64,000 nucleotides of DNA from assembly GCA_021810505.1 (NCBI GenBank), contig JAJZIR010000004.1, forward strand, positions 62,001-126,000. The letters run 5' to 3'. Positions 4,352-52,942 of this stretch are shown one piece after another (position 1 is the stretch's first letter; each line of letters begins with the position of its first letter). The notes below the pieces were generated by a model. That model was not told where the DNA came from. It searched no databases and worked only from the letters and a program-made list of their open reading frames with translations. The position numbers were made by a program, and so were the translations under genes. This DNA comes from a bacterium. GTDB taxonomy: Bacteria; Deinococcota; Deinococci; Deinococcales; Deinococcaceae.

Positions 4352-4410
4352 CCACTTGAGCCGCGGCTTACCCTTCCGCTGCGCTCCAGGCCAAGCCGCG
4401 GCTCAAGTGG
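4352..4410. repeat. Perfect 18-bp inverted repeat with 23-nt loop
   Basis: Arms 4352-4369 and 4393-4410 (CCACTTGAGCCGCGGCTT and its exact complement). It lies just after the hydrolase stop. There is no T-run on the plus strand, so it is not a textbook terminator. A small mobile-element end or a processing hairpin is possible. Confidence 0.7.
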
Positions 4411-4442
4411 AACGTCAGGCGCGCTAATCAAAAGGCGCGGTG

Positions 4443-4822
4443 ATGATTAATCCTGAAGGTGTAGTTTCGGCGAGTTGGCGGAACATTCTCGCTCAAGAAA
4501 TCTTTCCAGGAATTCGCATGCGTATCCTCTGGTAGGGCACGAACGGCGCAAAGGCCAAGATTCTAGAAATCGACCTCGGTGCCAAATTCACAGCCTTTGA
4601 CACCCACTCTCCTGGCCCTGAAGAAGTCTTCGCGATATCTGGCGTGTTTAGCTATGGTGTCCACGATTATCCTACAGGTTCTTTATTCACGACTCAGTCG
4701 GCTCTGCGCACGTTCCGCAATCAGCGCAAAGTTGCGTGATTTTTGTGCTCTTCCCAGATGGGGTGAGCCAATGCGATCTCTTAAGAGGCTTCCCCAGCGG
4801 CCCTGAGAGACCGGATATTTGA
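4443..4822 (+). pseudogene. Degenerate ChrR-like cupin gene
   Basis: From the ATG at 4443 the frame reads 30 codons to an in-frame TAG at 4533-4535. Beyond it the same frame continues with cupin-like text (IDLGAKFTAFDTHSPGPEEVF, then GVFSYGVHDYPTGS). Near 4690-4710 the frame shifts: the next frame carries the expected end PQSAQSCVIFVLFPDG and closes at TGA 4820-4822. One nonsense codon and at least one frameshift make it nonfunctional. Intact relatives are small cupins, some acting as zinc anti-sigma or acetylacetone-type proteins. It is part of the low-GC patch with the hydrolase. Confidence 0.7.
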
Positions 4823-4835
4823 AGTCATGCTGGGG

Positions 4836-4929
4836 AGGTGGGCTGAAACCACCCTGACAGGCACGGTCTACTGTCACGGCGGAGGTTTCGATGCGAGGAT
4901 CTGGAAAGCGCCGATTCGCCGCCCTATCC
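4836..4929 (+). repeat. Right (functional) copy of the duplicated operator/gene-start module
   Basis: Homologous to 3241-3333. It contains the operator-like inverted repeat, the GGAGG ribosome site and the first ~13 codons of the solute-binding protein gene at 4891. Confidence 0.85.
4855..4876. promoter_or_regulatory. Inverted repeat TGACAG-N10-CTGTCA, candidate operator
   Basis: Perfect 6-bp arms 10 bp apart, 15 bp before the start codon of the binding-protein gene. The arms are conserved in the left module copy at 3260-3281 while the spacer differs at three positions, which argues that the arms matter. No regulator gene is adjacent. Confidence 0.5.
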
Positions 4930-6024
4930 CTGACTCTCTTAGGAAGCGCAGCCTTAGCGGCCCCAGCTTGTGGGACCACCCGGCCCATCACGCTCACCTT
5001 CTACTCCAGCGGTGATGTCAACGTACACCACCTCTGGGCCAGCGACCTCCTGCCCATGTACGCCAAGATCTGCAGCCAGGTACACATCCGCCTGGTGTTC
5101 TCCACCCATGGCACCGCCGACCAACTCACCCTGGACCGCTTGGCAGCGGCCAAACAGGCTGGCAAACCATCCGGCGTGGATCTCTGGGAGAGCGGGCTCT
5201 TGCTCGAGGCTGGACAGAGCGGATTGCTGCGCAAGTTGAGCCCAGCAGCTATTTCCAACTTGAAGCGGGTCAACCCGGAGGTCTTCGCCAGCTACGGCGG
5301 CTACGGGGTTCCCTACCGCGGAAGCTCGGTGGTTTTGGCCTACAACAGCAACCACATCGCGCACCCGCCCAGAACGCTGTCAGGTCTAGAGCGCTGGATC
5401 CAGGCCCATCCTGGGAAATTCACCTATAACCCTCCTAACACCGGAGGATCCGGGGACGCTTTCGTCCAGGCAGTGCTCGAACAGTTTCTCCAGCCAGCTG
5501 AAAGCAAGGCCTTCTTCACTGGCTACGCCCCCCAACTTGAAGCGCAGTGGAAGCCAGGCTGGCACGAACTCATCAAGCTCGGGAAGGACATGTACCAGGG
5601 GGGCTTCTACCCCCAGGGTAACGTCGGGGTTTTGCAGGCCCTAGGGCGCGGCAGCATCTGGATGGCACCGGTCTGGTCGGATATGTCGCTGAGCTACCTG
5701 GCGCAAGGGCTCTTGCCCTCCAGTATCAAGCTGGAGCAGCTACAACCTCCTTTCTACGGGGGGTCGGCCTACATCGGGATCCCCAAAGATAGCGCACACC
5801 CCCAAGCCGCTGAGGCTTTCTTGAACTGGCTCCTCACCCCGGGTCCCCAAGCCGTGGTCGTCCACCAGATGCACGGCTACCCAGGGGTAGAATGGAAGTA
5901 CGTCCCCTCTTCCGTGCAGCGGAAATTCGCTGCTATCGCTGAGAATTATGGGGTCGGATTCAGCCCCAAGTTCGACGCCGATATGGCGCAGAAGTGGTCG
6001 CAGAAGGTGGCGGGCAGCCATTGA
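4891..6024 (+). CDS. ABC importer solute-binding protein (YnjB/spermidine-like type)
   Basis: Exported receptor of 377 residues, first gene of a six-gene operon. It has a basic N-terminus MRGSGKRRF, a hydrophobic stretch and a probable cleavage near ALAAPACG; the cysteine could be lipidated. The mature chain starts ITLTFYSSGD and includes a WIQAHPGKFTYNPP segment seen in YnjB-type receptors. The ATG follows GGAGG at good spacing. The linked permeases, ATPase, glycerophosphodiester phosphodiesterase and PHP hydrolase point to an organophosphate such as a glycerophosphodiester, but the ligand is inferred only from context. Confidence 0.85.
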   Translation: MRGSGKRRFAALSLTLLGSAALAAPACGTTRPITLTFYSSGDVNVHHLWASDLLPMYAKICSQVHIRLVFSTHGTADQLTLDRLAAAKQAGKPSGVDLWESGLLLEAGQSGLLRKLSPAAISNLKRVNPEVFASYGGYGVPYRGSSVVLAYNSNHIAHPPRTLSGLERWIQAHPGKFTYNPPNTGGSGDAFVQAVLEQFLQPAESKAFFTGYAPQLEAQWKPGWHELIKLGKDMYQGGFYPQGNVGVLQALGRGSIWMAPVWSDMSLSYLAQGLLPSSIKLEQLQPPFYGGSAYIGIPKDSAHPQAAEAFLNWLLTPGPQAVVVHQMHGYPGVEWKYVPSSVQRKFAAIAENYGVGFSPKFDADMAQKWSQKVAGSH

Positions 6025-6935
6025 CCACGCTCCAGGCCGGTGCCCGCACCCAGCAGGAAAAGCGGCCGATCAGAGCGCAGCTGACCGGCCTTCTGCTGGT
6101 TGCGCCGCCGATCGCCCTGCTGGCTTTGCTGGTTGCCTGGCCTGCGGTCTCAGCGATCAGCTTTTCCCTGGGCCTGATCCCTGGAAACAACCTGCTGTTC
6201 AGCCAGGGCCTACACCTCATCCGCAGCGATCACCCTACCTTTCAGGTCTACAAAGCGCTGTGGGGGCAGCCCGCTTTCCGGGCTGACCTAGCCCTCACGG
6301 TCGGCGTAGCGCTTTGGAGCACCCTCTCCATCTGCGTCTTGGCCTACGCCCTAGCGCTGTACACGCACTTCCACCGCCACCGGCTAGCCACCCTACTCCG
6401 CAGCCTCTATCTGGTTCCGATGTTCGTCCCCGTGGTGATCGCCTCATACGGCCTGCTGCTGTTCTTCGAAGGTAGGGGTTGGCTGGGATCCCTAATCGCA
6501 CAGCTAGGAGCGCCCTACCGCTCCCCGATCTTCCATCAAGGTGGCGTGGTGCTAGGCCAAGTTTGGCAAGGAATCCCCTTCGGAGTCCTGCTCCTCGGTG
6601 CCGGCTTGGAGCAGATCGCACCCGAGCTGCTCGACGCAGCCAGGGATTGCGGGGCGAATATCTGGACTCTGCTGGGCCGGGTGATCCTCCCGCTCAACTG
6701 GACCGGATTGCTCATCGTCGCCACCTTCACCTTCATCGGAGGGATGGGGAGCTTTACTATCCCCTTCCTGCTAGGACCCAATGCCCCCCAGTTGCTGGCT
6801 GTAGAGATGAACAACTATTTCGGGAGCTTCGATCAACCGCAGCCCGCCGTCGCCATGGCGGTGCTGACCTTCCTGATCGCCAGCCTAGCCGGGGGGCTCT
6901 ACGTCTTCGCGACCTACCGCCAGAGAAAGCTATGA
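6021..6935 (+). CDS. ABC importer permease, first subunit
   Basis: Inner-membrane subunit with about six hydrophobic segments, starting with LLLVAPPIALLALLVAW. The EAA loop that contacts the ATPase is visible as ELLDAARDCGANIWTLLGRV. The TTG at 6021 overlaps the upstream TGA (ATTGA) and follows AAGGTGG, so I prefer it (304 residues); a GTG at 5994 in the same frame would overlap more and has no good ribosome site. It forms a heterodimer with the next gene product. Confidence 0.85.
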   Translation: MTTLQAGARTQQEKRPIRAQLTGLLLVAPPIALLALLVAWPAVSAISFSLGLIPGNNLLFSQGLHLIRSDHPTFQVYKALWGQPAFRADLALTVGVALWSTLSICVLAYALALYTHFHRHRLATLLRSLYLVPMFVPVVIASYGLLLFFEGRGWLGSLIAQLGAPYRSPIFHQGGVVLGQVWQGIPFGVLLLGAGLEQIAPELLDAARDCGANIWTLLGRVILPLNWTGLLIVATFTFIGGMGSFTIPFLLGPNAPQLLAVEMNNYFGSFDQPQPAVAMAVLTFLIASLAGGLYVFATYRQRKL

Positions 6936-46716: not shown

Positions 46717-47489
46717 TGGACTGGCAGCGCGCCCTCGAGGTCGCCGTCGCAGCCTGCCACCGGGCCGGTTCCCTGCACCTGCAGCTCCGTGACCAAGGTT
46801 TGGACATCGGGAGCAAGAGCACTTTCGCTGACCTGGTGACCAGGGCCGACAGGGAGTCCGAGCTAGCCATCCGGCAGGTCATCGCGGCAGCCTTCCCCGA
46901 CCACGCTGTGGTCGGGGAAGAGGGGGGGCAGCTGGGGGACAGCCGGTACCGCTGGATCGTCGATCCCCTGGATGGGACCGTCAATTACGCCCACGGCTTC
47001 CCCTTCAGCTGCGTCTCGGTGGCCTTGGAGGTGGAGGGCCAGACGCGGGTCGGCGCCGTATTCGACCCCAACCGCCAGGAGCTGTTCTCGGCCATCCGGG
47101 GGCAGGGAGCCCGCTGCAACGGCCACCCCATCCGGGTATCGGCCTGTCCTGACCTGGAAACTCCAGCTCTGCTGGCCACCGGCTTTCCCTACGACCCAGC
47201 CGAGGGAGCGCACAACCTGGAGCTGTTCAGCCGCTTTCTCAGGCTCGGCCTACCGGTTCGGCGGCCTGGAGCAGCCGCACTCGATCTGTGCTACCTGGCC
47301 GCCGGGCGACTCGACGGCTTCTGGGAGTTCAAGCTGAACCCCTGGGACGTCGCTGCCGGCATTCTGATCATCCAAGAGGCCGGTGGGCAGGTCACCGACC
47401 TGAGCGGGGAGACCTACCGCTACGGGGGCCCGCTGTTGGCCAGCAACGGCAGGATACACCGTCAGATGCGCGCAATCCTAAGCCCCTAG
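46716..47489 (+). CDS. Inositol monophosphatase family protein
   Basis: A 257-residue Mg-dependent sugar-phosphate phosphatase. Motifs in order are VVGEEGG, the metal-binding DPLDGTVNYAHGFP and NPWDVAAGILIIQEAGG. Family members act on inositol-1-P, fructose-1,6-P2, PAP or NADP; the sequence alone does not decide, and the sulfur-related neighbours make a PAP phosphatase role worth testing. Start overlaps the sufT stop. Confidence 0.9.
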   Translation: MDWQRALEVAVAACHRAGSLHLQLRDQGLDIGSKSTFADLVTRADRESELAIRQVIAAAFPDHAVVGEEGGQLGDSRYRWIVDPLDGTVNYAHGFPFSCVSVALEVEGQTRVGAVFDPNRQELFSAIRGQGARCNGHPIRVSACPDLETPALLATGFPYDPAEGAHNLELFSRFLRLGLPVRRPGAAALDLCYLAAGRLDGFWEFKLNPWDVAAGILIIQEAGGQVTDLSGETYRYGGPLLASNGRIHRQMRAILSP

Positions 47490-47615
47490 CCGGACCAGGA
47501 GCGGTTCCCCTGCAGGCTCAGCCCCGAGCGTGGCAGCCGGCCGCACCGCCCTCTAAGGTGTTTGGGCGTGGCGGGCCCCGGGCGCGCAATATTGTCACGA
47601 CAGTTGCAGTCAGGT

Positions 47616-47645
47616 TTGTACAAGCTTTGATACAGTCTTGTTCAA
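47616..47645. promoter_or_regulatory. Three octamers phased at 11 bp upstream of the Crp/Fnr gene
   Basis: TTGTACAA (47616-47623), TTGATACA (47627-47634) and TTGTTCAA (47638-47645) start exactly 11 bp apart, one helical turn, in the AT-rich 222-base leader of the regulator gene. This looks like an array of binding sites for one protein on one face of the DNA. The 47490-47615 part holds no other visible signal. Confidence 0.5.
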
Positions 47646-47711
47646 GGGAAGATCCGAGGAAGATTGGGCGTCTAGCTTCCCAGGTTTAGGTCTGGCCCCG
47701 AAATAGAAAGC

Positions 47712-48344
47712 GTGGATGACATGATGCAGAGCGCGAGCAGCCAGCTCCACCACCCCCACGAGACCCAGCAGCGCCCACTGCGGCGCGGCGACACGCTGTA
47801 CTACGCCGGCGACGCCAGCCCGGCGCTGTATCGGTTGGAGAGCGGTCTGCTGCGGGCCATCCGGCTCACCCCTCAGGGCCGGAATCTGACCGTCCGCCAC
47901 GTCCTCCCGGGAGATATCTTCGGCGAAGAGGCCCTGCACGGGACCCCGCGCGGCCATCAGCTGGTCGCCCTGACCGACGCGGCGGTCATCCCGATCTACC
48001 CGCAGGAGCTCCAGGGAGCAGCGCTCTGGGAGATCGTCCGCTCGCTCAGCATCCAGCTGCAGCGGGTGATGAACGACGGCGTGCACATCCAGGATGGCGA
48101 GCTGCGCGAGCGGATCGCCCGCTATCTGTTGAATCTGGCCGACTCCTCGCTGGGGGGTCTCGAGGGCGGCATGCGGGTGGTCCGGGCCACCCATGAGCTG
48201 ATCGCCGAGGGTACTGGGGCAACCCGCGAGAGCGTCAGCAAGCTGATCGGGGAGATGCGCGACGACGGCCTTCTCGCACCAGCGTACCGCTGCATCGGGC
48301 TCAGCGACGAAGCCGAGCTGCGCCAACTGGCCGGCTTGAGCTGA
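47712..48344 (+). CDS. Crp/Fnr-family transcriptional regulator
   Basis: A 210-residue regulator. The cyclic-nucleotide-binding-like beta roll spans ~15-110 ([34 protein letters not shown]), then a dimer helix and an HTH with [20 protein letters not shown]. The FGEEAL segment is close to the cAMP-pocket FGE motif, and the overall sequence resembles the Deinococcus DdrI/Crp type. GTG start at 47712 with an AGAAAG site. It is preceded by phased octamers that may be autoregulatory. Confidence 0.88.
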
Positions 48345-49351: not shown

Positions 49352-50398
49352 ATGGCATATTCCAGGGCCGGATGGGCGCTGCTGGCTTCGGTGCTGCTGG
49401 CCGTCCCCGCTTCGGCCAAGACCCTCACGGTGGTCGTTCCCGACTCCTTCGCGCTGAGCAAGGCGCTGGTAGCGAAGTTCGAGCGCCAGCAGGGGGTCAC
49501 GCTGCGCTTCCTCAAGGCTGGCAGCGCCGGCGCGATGGTCAACCGGCTGATCCTGACCAGGCGACATCCGTTGGGCGACCTAGTCTACGGGATCGACAAC
49601 ACCCTGATCGGCAAAGCAGTCCGCTACCACCTGCTGGCCCGCTACCGAACGCCGGGTACGCCCGAGTTGCCTCCCGAGCTACAGCTGCTGCCAACCGGAT
49701 ACCTGACCCCGATCAACCTCAGCACCGTCGCTATCACCGACGATCCGTCCTACTTCAGGAAACACCACCTACCGCTCCCCACCCAGTTGAGCCAGCTGGT
49801 GCGCGAGCGCTACCGCGGGCTGCTGGTGATGGAGAATCCGGCGACCAGCAGCACCGGCAGGGCCTTCCTGCTCGCTACCGTGGCCCACTTCGGCAAGTCG
49901 GTGTGGTCTTTTTGGCAACGGCTCAGGGAAAACGGGCTCAAAGTGGTGAACGGTTGGGAGGCGGCCTACTACACCGACTTCAGCAAGTACGGCGGCAGCC
50001 AACCGCTGGTGGTGAGTTATCTCACCGATCCAGCCGCTGAGGTCTATTTTGCCAAGACCAAGCTGCGCGCGAGTCCGGTCAGCAACCTGCTGCTACCCGG
50101 AAGCACCTTCGTGCAGGTGGAGGGCGCGGGGCTGCTGCGGGGCGGCCACCACCGCCAAGCGGCTGAAGCCTTCCTCCGCTTCCTGCTCAGCCGGGCCGCC
50201 CAGAGCTCCATCCCGACCAGCATGTGGGTCCTCCCGGTAGTCCCTGGGACCACTCTGAATCCGGTCTTCCGCTTTGATAGCAAGGCGCCCAAGCCGGATC
50301 AGGCCAGCTCGCTGCAGATCGCCGCTCACGTCCAGCGCTGGGTGCACGACTGGACCGCAGTGGTGATCGAGGGAGAGCCAGCCAGCCAGGTGCGTTGA
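49352..50398 (+). CDS. thiB: Thiamine ABC importer substrate-binding protein
   Basis: Exported receptor for thiamine or its phosphates, 348 residues. Signal peptide MAYSRAGWALLASVLLAVPASA; mature start KTLTVVVPDSFALSKALVAKFE; GDLVYGIDNTLIGKAV and NPATSSTGRAFLLATV are typical ThiB segments. The gene follows a TPP riboswitch directly, which gives the ligand assignment strong support. Confidence 0.93.
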   Translation: MAYSRAGWALLASVLLAVPASAKTLTVVVPDSFALSKALVAKFERQQGVTLRFLKAGSAGAMVNRLILTRRHPLGDLVYGIDNTLIGKAVRYHLLARYRTPGTPELPPELQLLPTGYLTPINLSTVAITDDPSYFRKHHLPLPTQLSQLVRERYRGLLVMENPATSSTGRAFLLATVAHFGKSVWSFWQRLRENGLKVVNGWEAAYYTDFSKYGGSQPLVVSYLTDPAAEVYFAKTKLRASPVSNLLLPGSTFVQVEGAGLLRGGHHRQAAEAFLRFLLSRAAQSSIPTSMWVLPVVPGTTLNPVFRFDSKAPKPDQASSLQIAAHVQRWVHDWTAVVIEGEPASQVR

Positions 50399-51957
50399 GC
50401 GCCCGGCGCACAGAGGCCACCAGCTGGCTGCTCGCCGCGCTGCCCTTGGGCTTTCTGGCGGCGATGGTGGCTTGGCCGCTAGCGACAGTGGCCGGAGGGG
50501 CTCTGCTCCACCCGGCAGCGCTGGCCTGGCTGCTGCGGCCCTACGGCCTGCACCTCGCAGTCTGGACCGCCGAACAGGCTCTGATCTCGACCGCCCTAGC
50601 TACCGCTCTGGGGCTGGTCTTAGCTGGTTTCCTGCAAACTTACCACTTCCCCGGTAAGCCGCTGCTGCTGAGGGCGTTGTTGCTTCCCTTTCTGACCCCC
50701 AGCCTGATCGCGGCTCTGGGTCTGCTCGATCTCTTCGGAGCGCACGGTCTGACCGGCTTGCACCCAGGAGGAGGGCTGCTGGTCATCCTGGCCAACTTGT
50801 TCTTCAACCTGCCCCTAGCCATCCGGCTGTGCTACGGCGGATTCAGCAGGGTCCCCCCACAAGCCCTGGAAGCCGCACGCAGCCTGGGGAGCTCGCCCTG
50901 GCGAGCTCGGCTACGGGTCACCCTGCCGTTGGTCTGGCCAGCGGCTCTAGCTGCCTCCAGCCTGGTGTTGCTCTACTCCTTCGTCGCCTTCGGGACCCCC
51001 CTGCTGCTGGCAGGACCCCGCCACCAGACCCTGGAGGTATTGATCTACGTATTGACCCTGGACCAGCTGCGCCTGAACCGGGCCGGGGCAGTGGCCTTGC
51101 TGCAGCTGCTGGTCTTGGGTGCCGTCACCGCCAGCTACACTTGGCTGCAGCGCAACCTGGCCCTCCAGCTGCCCTCTGGGATCGGGACGAGCCGCAGCCC
51201 CAAGGGGATCGGGAAGCTGTTGGTCCGCGCAGGCGCTCTCTCGATCGCCGCCCTAACCCTGGGACCGCTGCTGCTGGTATTGGCCGGCAGCTTGAGCGGA
51301 GCGGGCAGACCCAGCTTGGCCGCCTACGCGGCCCTGGGAGGGTTGCAGCTCCCGGTCAGCTTGGCCAGGGCAGCGCTGAACACAGCCCTGCTGGCTCTGC
51401 TATCGCTCCCACTCAGCTTGTTGCTCGGGGGCCTGCTGGCGCTAGCTATCTGGAGCTCTCCGGGGGTTTTGGACCTGCTCAGCCTGTTGCCGCTGATGGT
51501 GTCACCCGTCAGCCTGGCGGTGGGTTACCTGTTGCTCTACCCCGGCCTGCGGCTCAGCCTGCTGCTGCTGATTTGCTCCTATGCGCTGCTGGCCTTCCCG
51601 CTGGTAACCCGCACGCTGCTCCCCGCGCTGCGCAGCCTCCCCCATAGCCAGCTGGACGCAGCCAGGACGCTGGGGAGCTCCTGGGGGCGCAGCCTCGCCC
51701 GGGTCGTCGCCCCGCAGCTGCGCGCAGCGCTGCGCGCAGCTGCGGCGTTGGCCTTGGCCACCGCCCTGGGCGAGTTCGCCTCCACCCTGGTGCTAGTCCG
51801 ACCGAGCTGGACCACCCTGGCGGTCGGCCTCTACCAGGTGGCGCAGCACCCCGGCCAGCTCCCCTTGGCCGAGGCGCAGGCGATCGCAGTGCTGCTGTTC
51901 GGCCTGACCCTGCTGGGCTTCACCGCTCTGGACGGCGGGCGGGCGGAGATCGGCTAG
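50395..51957 (+). CDS. thiP: Thiamine ABC importer permease (fused pair)
   Basis: A 520-residue membrane protein in which two permease domains are joined, each with about six helices and an EAA loop: ALEAARSLGSSPWRARLRVTL and QLDAARTLGSSWGRSLARVV. TTG start overlapping the thiB stop (TTGA). It forms the channel with ThiQ. Leucine-rich throughout, as in other ThiP proteins. Confidence 0.93.
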   Translation: MSARRTEATSWLLAALPLGFLAAMVAWPLATVAGGALLHPAALAWLLRPYGLHLAVWTAEQALISTALATALGLVLAGFLQTYHFPGKPLLLRALLLPFLTPSLIAALGLLDLFGAHGLTGLHPGGGLLVILANLFFNLPLAIRLCYGGFSRVPPQALEAARSLGSSPWRARLRVTLPLVWPAALAASSLVLLYSFVAFGTPLLLAGPRHQTLEVLIYVLTLDQLRLNRAGAVALLQLLVLGAVTASYTWLQRNLALQLPSGIGTSRSPKGIGKLLVRAGALSIAALTLGPLLLVLAGSLSGAGRPSLAAYAALGGLQLPVSLARAALNTALLALLSLPLSLLLGGLLALAIWSSPGVLDLLSLLPLMVSPVSLAVGYLLLYPGLRLSLLLLICSYALLAFPLVTRTLLPALRSLPHSQLDAARTLGSSWGRSLARVVAPQLRAALRAAAALALATALGEFASTLVLVRPSWTTLAVGLYQVAQHPGQLPLAEAQAIAVLLFGLTLLGFTALDGGRAEIG

Positions 51958-51970
51958 ACTCGGGGAACGC

Positions 51971-52942
51971 ATGCTGGAGATCCGCAATCTCAGCAAACAC
52001 TTCGGCAGCACCGCTGCGGCCGACGCGGTCAACCTGGCGCTGGAGAGCGGCCAGATCCTGGCCCTCCTGGGACCCTCCGGCAGCGGCAAGAGCACGCTGC
52101 TTAGGCTGCTGGCCGGCCTGGAGAGGGCCGATGGCGGCGAAGTCTGGTTGGACGGCAGGGAGCTGAGCAAGTTACCACCCGAGCAGCGCAAGGTGGGGCT
52201 GATCTTCCAGGACTACGCCCTGTTCCCGCACCTAGACGTGCTCGGAAACGTCAGCTACGGCCTGGTGGAGCAGCGGATCCCCAAGGAGGAACGGGGGCGC
52301 CGAGCCGAGGAGCTGCTGGAGCGGATGGGCCTGGGTCAACTGGCCCGGCGCCGCACCTGGCAGCTCTCAGGCGGGCAGCAGCAGCGGGTGGCGGTGGCCC
52401 GCAGCCTGGCCACCCGGCCGCGCCTGTTGCTGCTGGATGAGCCGCTCTCCAATCTGGACGCGCAGCTGCGCCAGGATCTCCAGGCCGAGATCCACAGCTG
52501 GCTGCAGCGCTTCGAGCTGACCGCGATCTGGGTCACCCACGACCGCTCGGAGGCCTTCGCAGTGGGGGACCGCCTGGCCGTGCTGAGGGCCGGGCGAATC
52601 TTGCAAGATGGGCCGCCCCTAGAGCTCTACCACAGGCCAGCCAGCGCCTGGATAGCCCGCTTTCTCGGGCACAAGAACCTCTGGCCCTCCGGGGATTCCT
52701 TTCTCCTGGTCCCGTCCGCAGCAGTCGGGCTGCGCGGTGGGGAGCCGGCCGAGTTGGAGTCCCACAGCAGCGACGGCGAGCGCCATCTGATACGGCTGCG
52801 CTGCCCGGAGGGAGCCCTGGAGCTGGAACTCAGCTCCAGGGAATGGGCGGAGCTGAGGCAGGGAAGGGATCTGGAGGTGGGCAGCGCGCTGGGGATCGCG
52901 CTCGACCGCGCGGCCCTGCTGCGCTTACCAGGAGACCTGTGA
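51971..52942 (+). CDS. thiQ: Thiamine ABC importer ATPase
   Basis: A 323-residue ATPase: Walker A GPSGSGKST, Q-loop FQDYALFPH, signature LSGGQQQRVAVARS, Walker B LLLLDEPLSNLD and H-loop WVTHDRSEA. The ~85 C-terminal residues form a small TOBE-like domain, longer than the E. coli ThiQ. ATG 13 bases after thiP. Confidence 0.92.
   Translation: MLEIRNLSKHFGSTAAADAVNLALESGQILALLGPSGSGKSTLLRLLAGLERADGGEVWLDGRELSKLPPEQRKVGLIFQDYALFPHLDVLGNVSYGLVEQRIPKEERGRRAEELLERMGLGQLARRRTWQLSGGQQQRVAVARSLATRPRLLLLDEPLSNLDAQLRQDLQAEIHSWLQRFELTAIWVTHDRSEAFAVGDRLAVLRAGRILQDGPPLELYHRPASAWIARFLGHKNLWPSGDSFLLVPSAAVGLRGGEPAELESHSSDGERHLIRLRCPEGALELELSSREWAELRQGRDLEVGSALGIALDRAALLRLPGDL

Follow-up and report, generated by a model that had tools for sequence, protein, structure and literature searches.

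Results

The array and the gene downstream

In the window (the whole 64,000-nucleotide stretch analysed), three octamers, TTGTACAA, TTGATACA and TTGTTCAA, start at 47616, 47627 and 47638, respectively, in exact steps of 11 bp, just as the earlier note had read them. The better register of the array is that of the minus strand, where the unit ends ACAA, TCAA and ACAA stand exactly in phase, its orientation being opposite to that of the downstream gene. In this register, the putative CarH-type operator (47616..47648, minus strand; unique in the genome) comprises three tandem 11-bp units: CCCTTGAACAA (unit 1, 47648-47638) and AGCTTGTACAA (unit 3, 47626-47616) keep the motif TnnACA, and the degenerate GACTGTATCAA between them (unit 2, 47637-47627) lacks the T and the first A of this motif. 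TnnACA is present in 2 of the 3 units on the minus strand and in 1 of 3 on the plus strand. Two more TTG triplets lie upstream, in TTGTCA from 47592 (47593-47594 region) and in TTGCAG from 47604; some 12 bp separate them, and they do not share the phase of the array.

Three TTG triplets at 11-bp steps occur once in the window against 0.12 expected, and at least once in 10 of 100 whole-window shuffles, which by itself is weak evidence against chance. The in-phase complement, WCAA-N7-WCAA-N7-WCAA, is found once in the window versus never in 100 shuffles, and a single time across the 2.31-Mb genome, where the reversed-pattern control has no match; this pattern was composed post hoc, with the site already known. 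Unlike it, the CarH-operator model described below is not tuned to the site.

The next open reading frame, ldrP1 (47721..48344, plus strand), encodes an LdrP-like Crp/Fnr regulator with the Pfam domains cNMP_binding and HTH_Crp_2, so that the array indeed precedes a Crp/Fnr gene, as had been noted earlier. There are two start candidates, GTG 47712, which gives the longer product, and the more likely ATG 47721, which aligns by eye with the starts of the orthologs in genomes G001 and G003; the GTG is probably unused. The ribosome-binding site is clear in both orthologs, but not in the window gene. The best model of the library for the product is LdrP (NCBIfam NF052518), at 169.7 bits, and among solved structures 5i2d and 3b02, those of Thermus TTHB099/LdrP, match best; because the score falls below the curated cut-off of 300, the protein is called LdrP-like rather than LdrP. 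A protein search found four family members of the ldrP1 product in its own genome, and since another one follows carH on contig C26, ldrP1 is a second LdrP-like gene that is not linked to carH. Its product groups with those of G001 (81%) and G003 (78%) in a clade supported at 100/100, to which the carH-linked copies of the family do not belong; the closest relatives in public data are metagenome-assembled genomes labelled Deinococcales. Further downstream (49352-52942) lies a thiamine-type ABC transporter set, with a substrate-binding protein (NCBIfam sfuA subfamily) and, by eye, permease-like and ATPase-like open reading frames.

The array resembles the operators of carH genes

CarH operators are tandem 11-bp repeats of the form nnnnTnnACAn, three in Thermus and four in Bacillus megaterium, with degenerate units tolerated, and three DNA-binding domains of the CarH/LitR tetramer engage the direct repeats, according to the available parts of PMC9304148. 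The genome of the window (G000) has a full-length carH, on contig C26, whose product would be the cognate light sensor. It contains MerR and B12-binding domains, matches Thermus CarH (PDB 5c8d) with an E value of 2.5e-46, and carries GxxW, EH, GxxH and GxxxP (by eye; W-x9-EH was matched by script), the light-response motifs of CarH given in the accessible text of PMC11796333. The gene is followed by the Crp/Fnr family member mentioned above.

The leader of this carH contains an 11-bp repeat, TTGTACAAAGG TTGTACATGGC, with the probable start codon within the second unit, and has two clear units rather than three (two-unit score 25.9, three-unit score 16.1). By eye, it has 12 of 13 bases in common with the window array, CAAAG[C/G]TTGTACA. 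Of 30 carH leaders of relatives, own genome included, 24 have two neighbouring TnnACA units at an 11-bp distance within the 290 bases examined. The carH leader of the Thermus-like genome G049 reads TGTACAAGACC TTGACAGGAGT TGTACAACCTG. In the relatives, LdrP genes follow carH.

A model of three units with a period of 11 was built from 27 carH leaders that belong to three other families, with G000, G002 and G003 excluded (an earlier run with 28 leaders had included G002; the reported run is without it). The window array scored 24.6 bits, compared with a training mean of 25.1 and a best score elsewhere in the window of 8.9. When each family was held out in turn, the site obtained 19.0, 24.9 and 23.8 bits versus 11.4, 6.9 and 7.4 for the best match elsewhere; the 27 true carH leaders, when held out, obtained 10.0 to 29.6 bits. 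In 5000 dinucleotide shuffles of the 80-bp core, the observed score was never reached, although the maximum came to 24.62, as may occur with so short a piece whose words are kept; over 50 whole-window shuffles, the maximum was 14.1 bits. Control models with periods of 9, 10, 12 and 13 gave the window leader 11.0, 16.0, 17.6 and 9.7 bits versus 14.4, 15.1, 16.2 and 19.6 elsewhere. With models built on reversed leaders, the array was in no case favoured (9.1 versus 13.6 elsewhere at period 11). No control singled out the array. The site thus counts three tandem repeats of 11 bp, complete or degenerate, and the other periods are not favoured. Most matches in the training leaders run in the same direction as carH, whereas the array runs opposite to its own gene. 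In G000, G001 and G003 alike, the best match near ldrP1 (in stretches of 64.0, 10.0 and 8.7 kb, respectively) falls in the region upstream of this gene.

Elsewhere, no strong array was found in the stretches examined around the distant LdrP paralogs of G016 (contig C4) and G019 (contig C55), with best scores of 7.3 and 8.1 bits, or in that of the partial G012 locus, with a best score below 0 bits. CarH control of crtB was considered and rejected, the crtB stretches containing no strong triple (best 6.7, 4.3 and 10.4 bits in G000, G001 and G003, respectively).

Promoter elements and orthologous leaders

A standard sigma-70 promoter scan of 47450-47760 was negative, and a classical promoter of this type was rejected for ldrP1. 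In 3 of 3 leaders (window, G001 and G003), TGnTAnnnT is present at TGATA. Read as an extended -10, this element (TGATACAGT at 47628..47636, plus strand, in the window) would place the transcription start near 47643, and the array would overlap both the -10 and the start site, as CarH/LitR operators do with the -35 or -10 of their promoters.

The consensus of TTHB099/LdrP is TGT(A/g)NBSYRSVN(T/c)ACA (PMC7662524, in its accessible part). Some 22 bp upstream from the core, at a distance that is the same within 1 bp, the G001 and G003 leaders carry a site with 12 of the 14 informative positions of this Thermus consensus, the sole match of this quality in 10.0 kb and 8.7 kb, respectively (both strands, palindromic pattern). 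The corresponding position in the window, near -42 (47593..47608, plus strand), holds the decayed TGTCACGACAGTTGCA, with 8 of 14. An activator site of LdrP type near -42 would accordingly precede a CarH operator placed across the -10. Positions in the three leaders were set by script; the MAFFT alignment is poor outside the core. The carH/ldrP2 leaders of G000, G001 and G003 (L052, G000:C26, about 6185-6240; L055; L121) contain TGTGnCRCATnnYACC exactly 34 bp before TTGTACA, an LdrP-site-like sequence with 10-11 of 14 matches.

The core, TTTGTAYANNNWTTGATA, is retained at the same place in both orthologs found, G001, which keeps TTTGTACAGCGATTGATA, and G003. The earlier note had looked to orthologous leaders for conservation of the octamers, and its expectation held in part: the first two recur in both leaders, the third in neither. 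The gene upstream of ldrP1 encodes an inositol-phosphatase family protein in the window and is another open reading frame in G003, so conservation of the core does not merely reflect a shared neighbourhood. In G003, the core scores 13.7 bits, and the strongest site, at 21.3 bits, lies further upstream in the intergenic region (L054, G003:C277, 5856-5899). Another copy of the core in G003, with one mismatch (contig C35, 1151-1168), sits in an overlapping reading frame of permease-like type and was regarded as a chance match.

No CarH is encoded in G001. A protein search for CarH retrieved only a MerR-type fragment (E value 4.5e-4). The MerR-type match on contig C7, a 332-aa open reading frame, resembles, by eye, a different regulator and was set aside. 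The single match to B12-binding_2 lies inside a 1281-aa open frame, which, judging by its length, is probably methionine synthase. At the second LdrP locus of this genome, the HMGL-like gene adjoins ldrP2 with no carH between them (L055, G001:C4:300000-310000, about 4379-6174), the position at which carH is present in G000. The same interval keeps a repeat remnant, TTGTACAAAGGGGATACA, with a two-unit score of 9.9 compared with 25.9 in G000. The three-unit score of the G001 core is -2.8; a 17.2-bit match to the CarH model upstream of ldrP1 (L053, G001:C2, 5049-5081) is, in a genome that lacks CarH, either a relic or chance. As the core is kept in G001 without carH, part of its conservation must have a cause other than CarH, probably the promoter.

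Alternative explanations

Some of these observations could also be accommodated by autoregulation, in which an LdrP-type Crp/Fnr dimer would bind the TGTA and TACA halves inside the array, both present there and both called for by the Thermus consensus cited above; retention of the core in G001 without CarH is consistent with this, too. We nevertheless regard it as unlikely. The halves in the array are spaced as TGTA-N10-TACA versus the published TGTR-N8-YACA, this 16-mer is absent from the array and its best match in the leader reaches 9 of 14, G001 and G003 have closer LdrP-type matches (12 of 14) upstream of their core, and the accessible text of PMC7662524 reports no TTHB099 site near its own gene. 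The ldrP1 product is thus unlikely to be the protein that mainly binds the array. Readings of the array as a Crp/Fnr palindrome or as an NtcA-like TGTA/TACA site were likewise dropped, as the spacing does not support them.

The persistence of the core in G001 also fits a promoter-only reading, in which TTTGTAYA and TTGATA owe their conservation to a role in the core promoter and the 11-bp phase is a coincidence, and so does the occurrence of TGnTAnnnT in all three leaders. This reading leaves unexplained the third in-phase unit, the period-specific score and the 12 of 13 bases common with the carH leader of the same genome, and the standard promoter scan was negative; we consider it quite improbable. 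Direct 11-bp repeats also occur beyond CarH, and another regulator of such repeats, for example an OmpR/PhoB-type response regulator, could account for the spacing. However, not only the spacing but also the sequence of the array fits the carH leaders, own leader included, which makes this option very improbable indeed.

Discussion

Taken together, these results suggest that the array is most likely an operator of the genome's own CarH/LitR, an AdoB12-dependent light-sensing repressor of the MerR type. The earlier suggestion that a regulator other than a Crp dimer, with its 22-bp site, uses the array as a phased operator is thereby supported, with the CarH/LitR tetramer as the candidate. In the dark, the tetramer would occupy all three 11-bp units along one face of the DNA and cover the presumed -10 and start site of ldrP1, so that transcription is blocked. 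On illumination, the Co-C bond of AdoB12 would be cleaved, upon which the tetramer would fall apart and release the DNA; ldrP1 would then be made, and its product would activate its targets. What the sequences show directly is the array, its agreement with the CarH-operator model, an intact carH, the repeat in the leader of that gene and the LdrP homology of the ldrP1 product; from these we infer CarH binding, repression and the light response, as well as the promoter position and the targets.

A broader picture, which we put forward tentatively and with somewhat less than even confidence, is that of a split circuit, in which a single CarH governs two separately located LdrP activators, that of its own operon and that behind the stand-alone array, with LdrP feedback on ldrP1 near -42; in G001, CarH would have been lost and the core kept for another regulator or as a promoter alone. 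Open-access titles and the openings of abstracts, a scope outside which most subscription papers lie, contained no stand-alone ldrP operator of the CarH type.

An unexplained repeat thereby becomes a testable light switch in uncultured Deinococcales, and the probable CarH regulon now takes in an unlinked activator. Scans for the 11-bp phase with a model built from carH leaders may find light-controlled genes outside carotenoid clusters. G001, in which CarH has been lost but the activator kept, represents a small natural experiment in circuit rewiring.

The LitR of Thermus keeps its own gene repressed in the dark; in the light, litR and the ldrP that follows it are derepressed, and LdrP activates crt and phrB, as described in the available parts of PMC5401885. 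Like the CarH/LitR operator of the litR/crtB region of Thermus thermophilus, the window array comprises three tandem 11-bp units, with TnnACA in two of them, and may overlap a promoter, and both carH and ldrP are present in one genome. Unlike the Thermus operator, it precedes an unlinked ldrP copy, runs in the opposite orientation and has a degenerate middle unit. The closest solved relatives of the window protein are LdrP/TTHB099 of T. thermophilus, encoded after litR, and 2 of the 3 orthologous leaders have an LdrP-type site near -42. In contrast to Thermus LdrP/TTHB099, the window copy belongs to a clade that does not include the carH-linked copies of its family, scores under the NCBIfam cut-off and would have a promoter and an operator of its own. 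Most likely, then, the array is a further CarH operator of the known type, in an unusual place before an unlinked ldrP-like gene.
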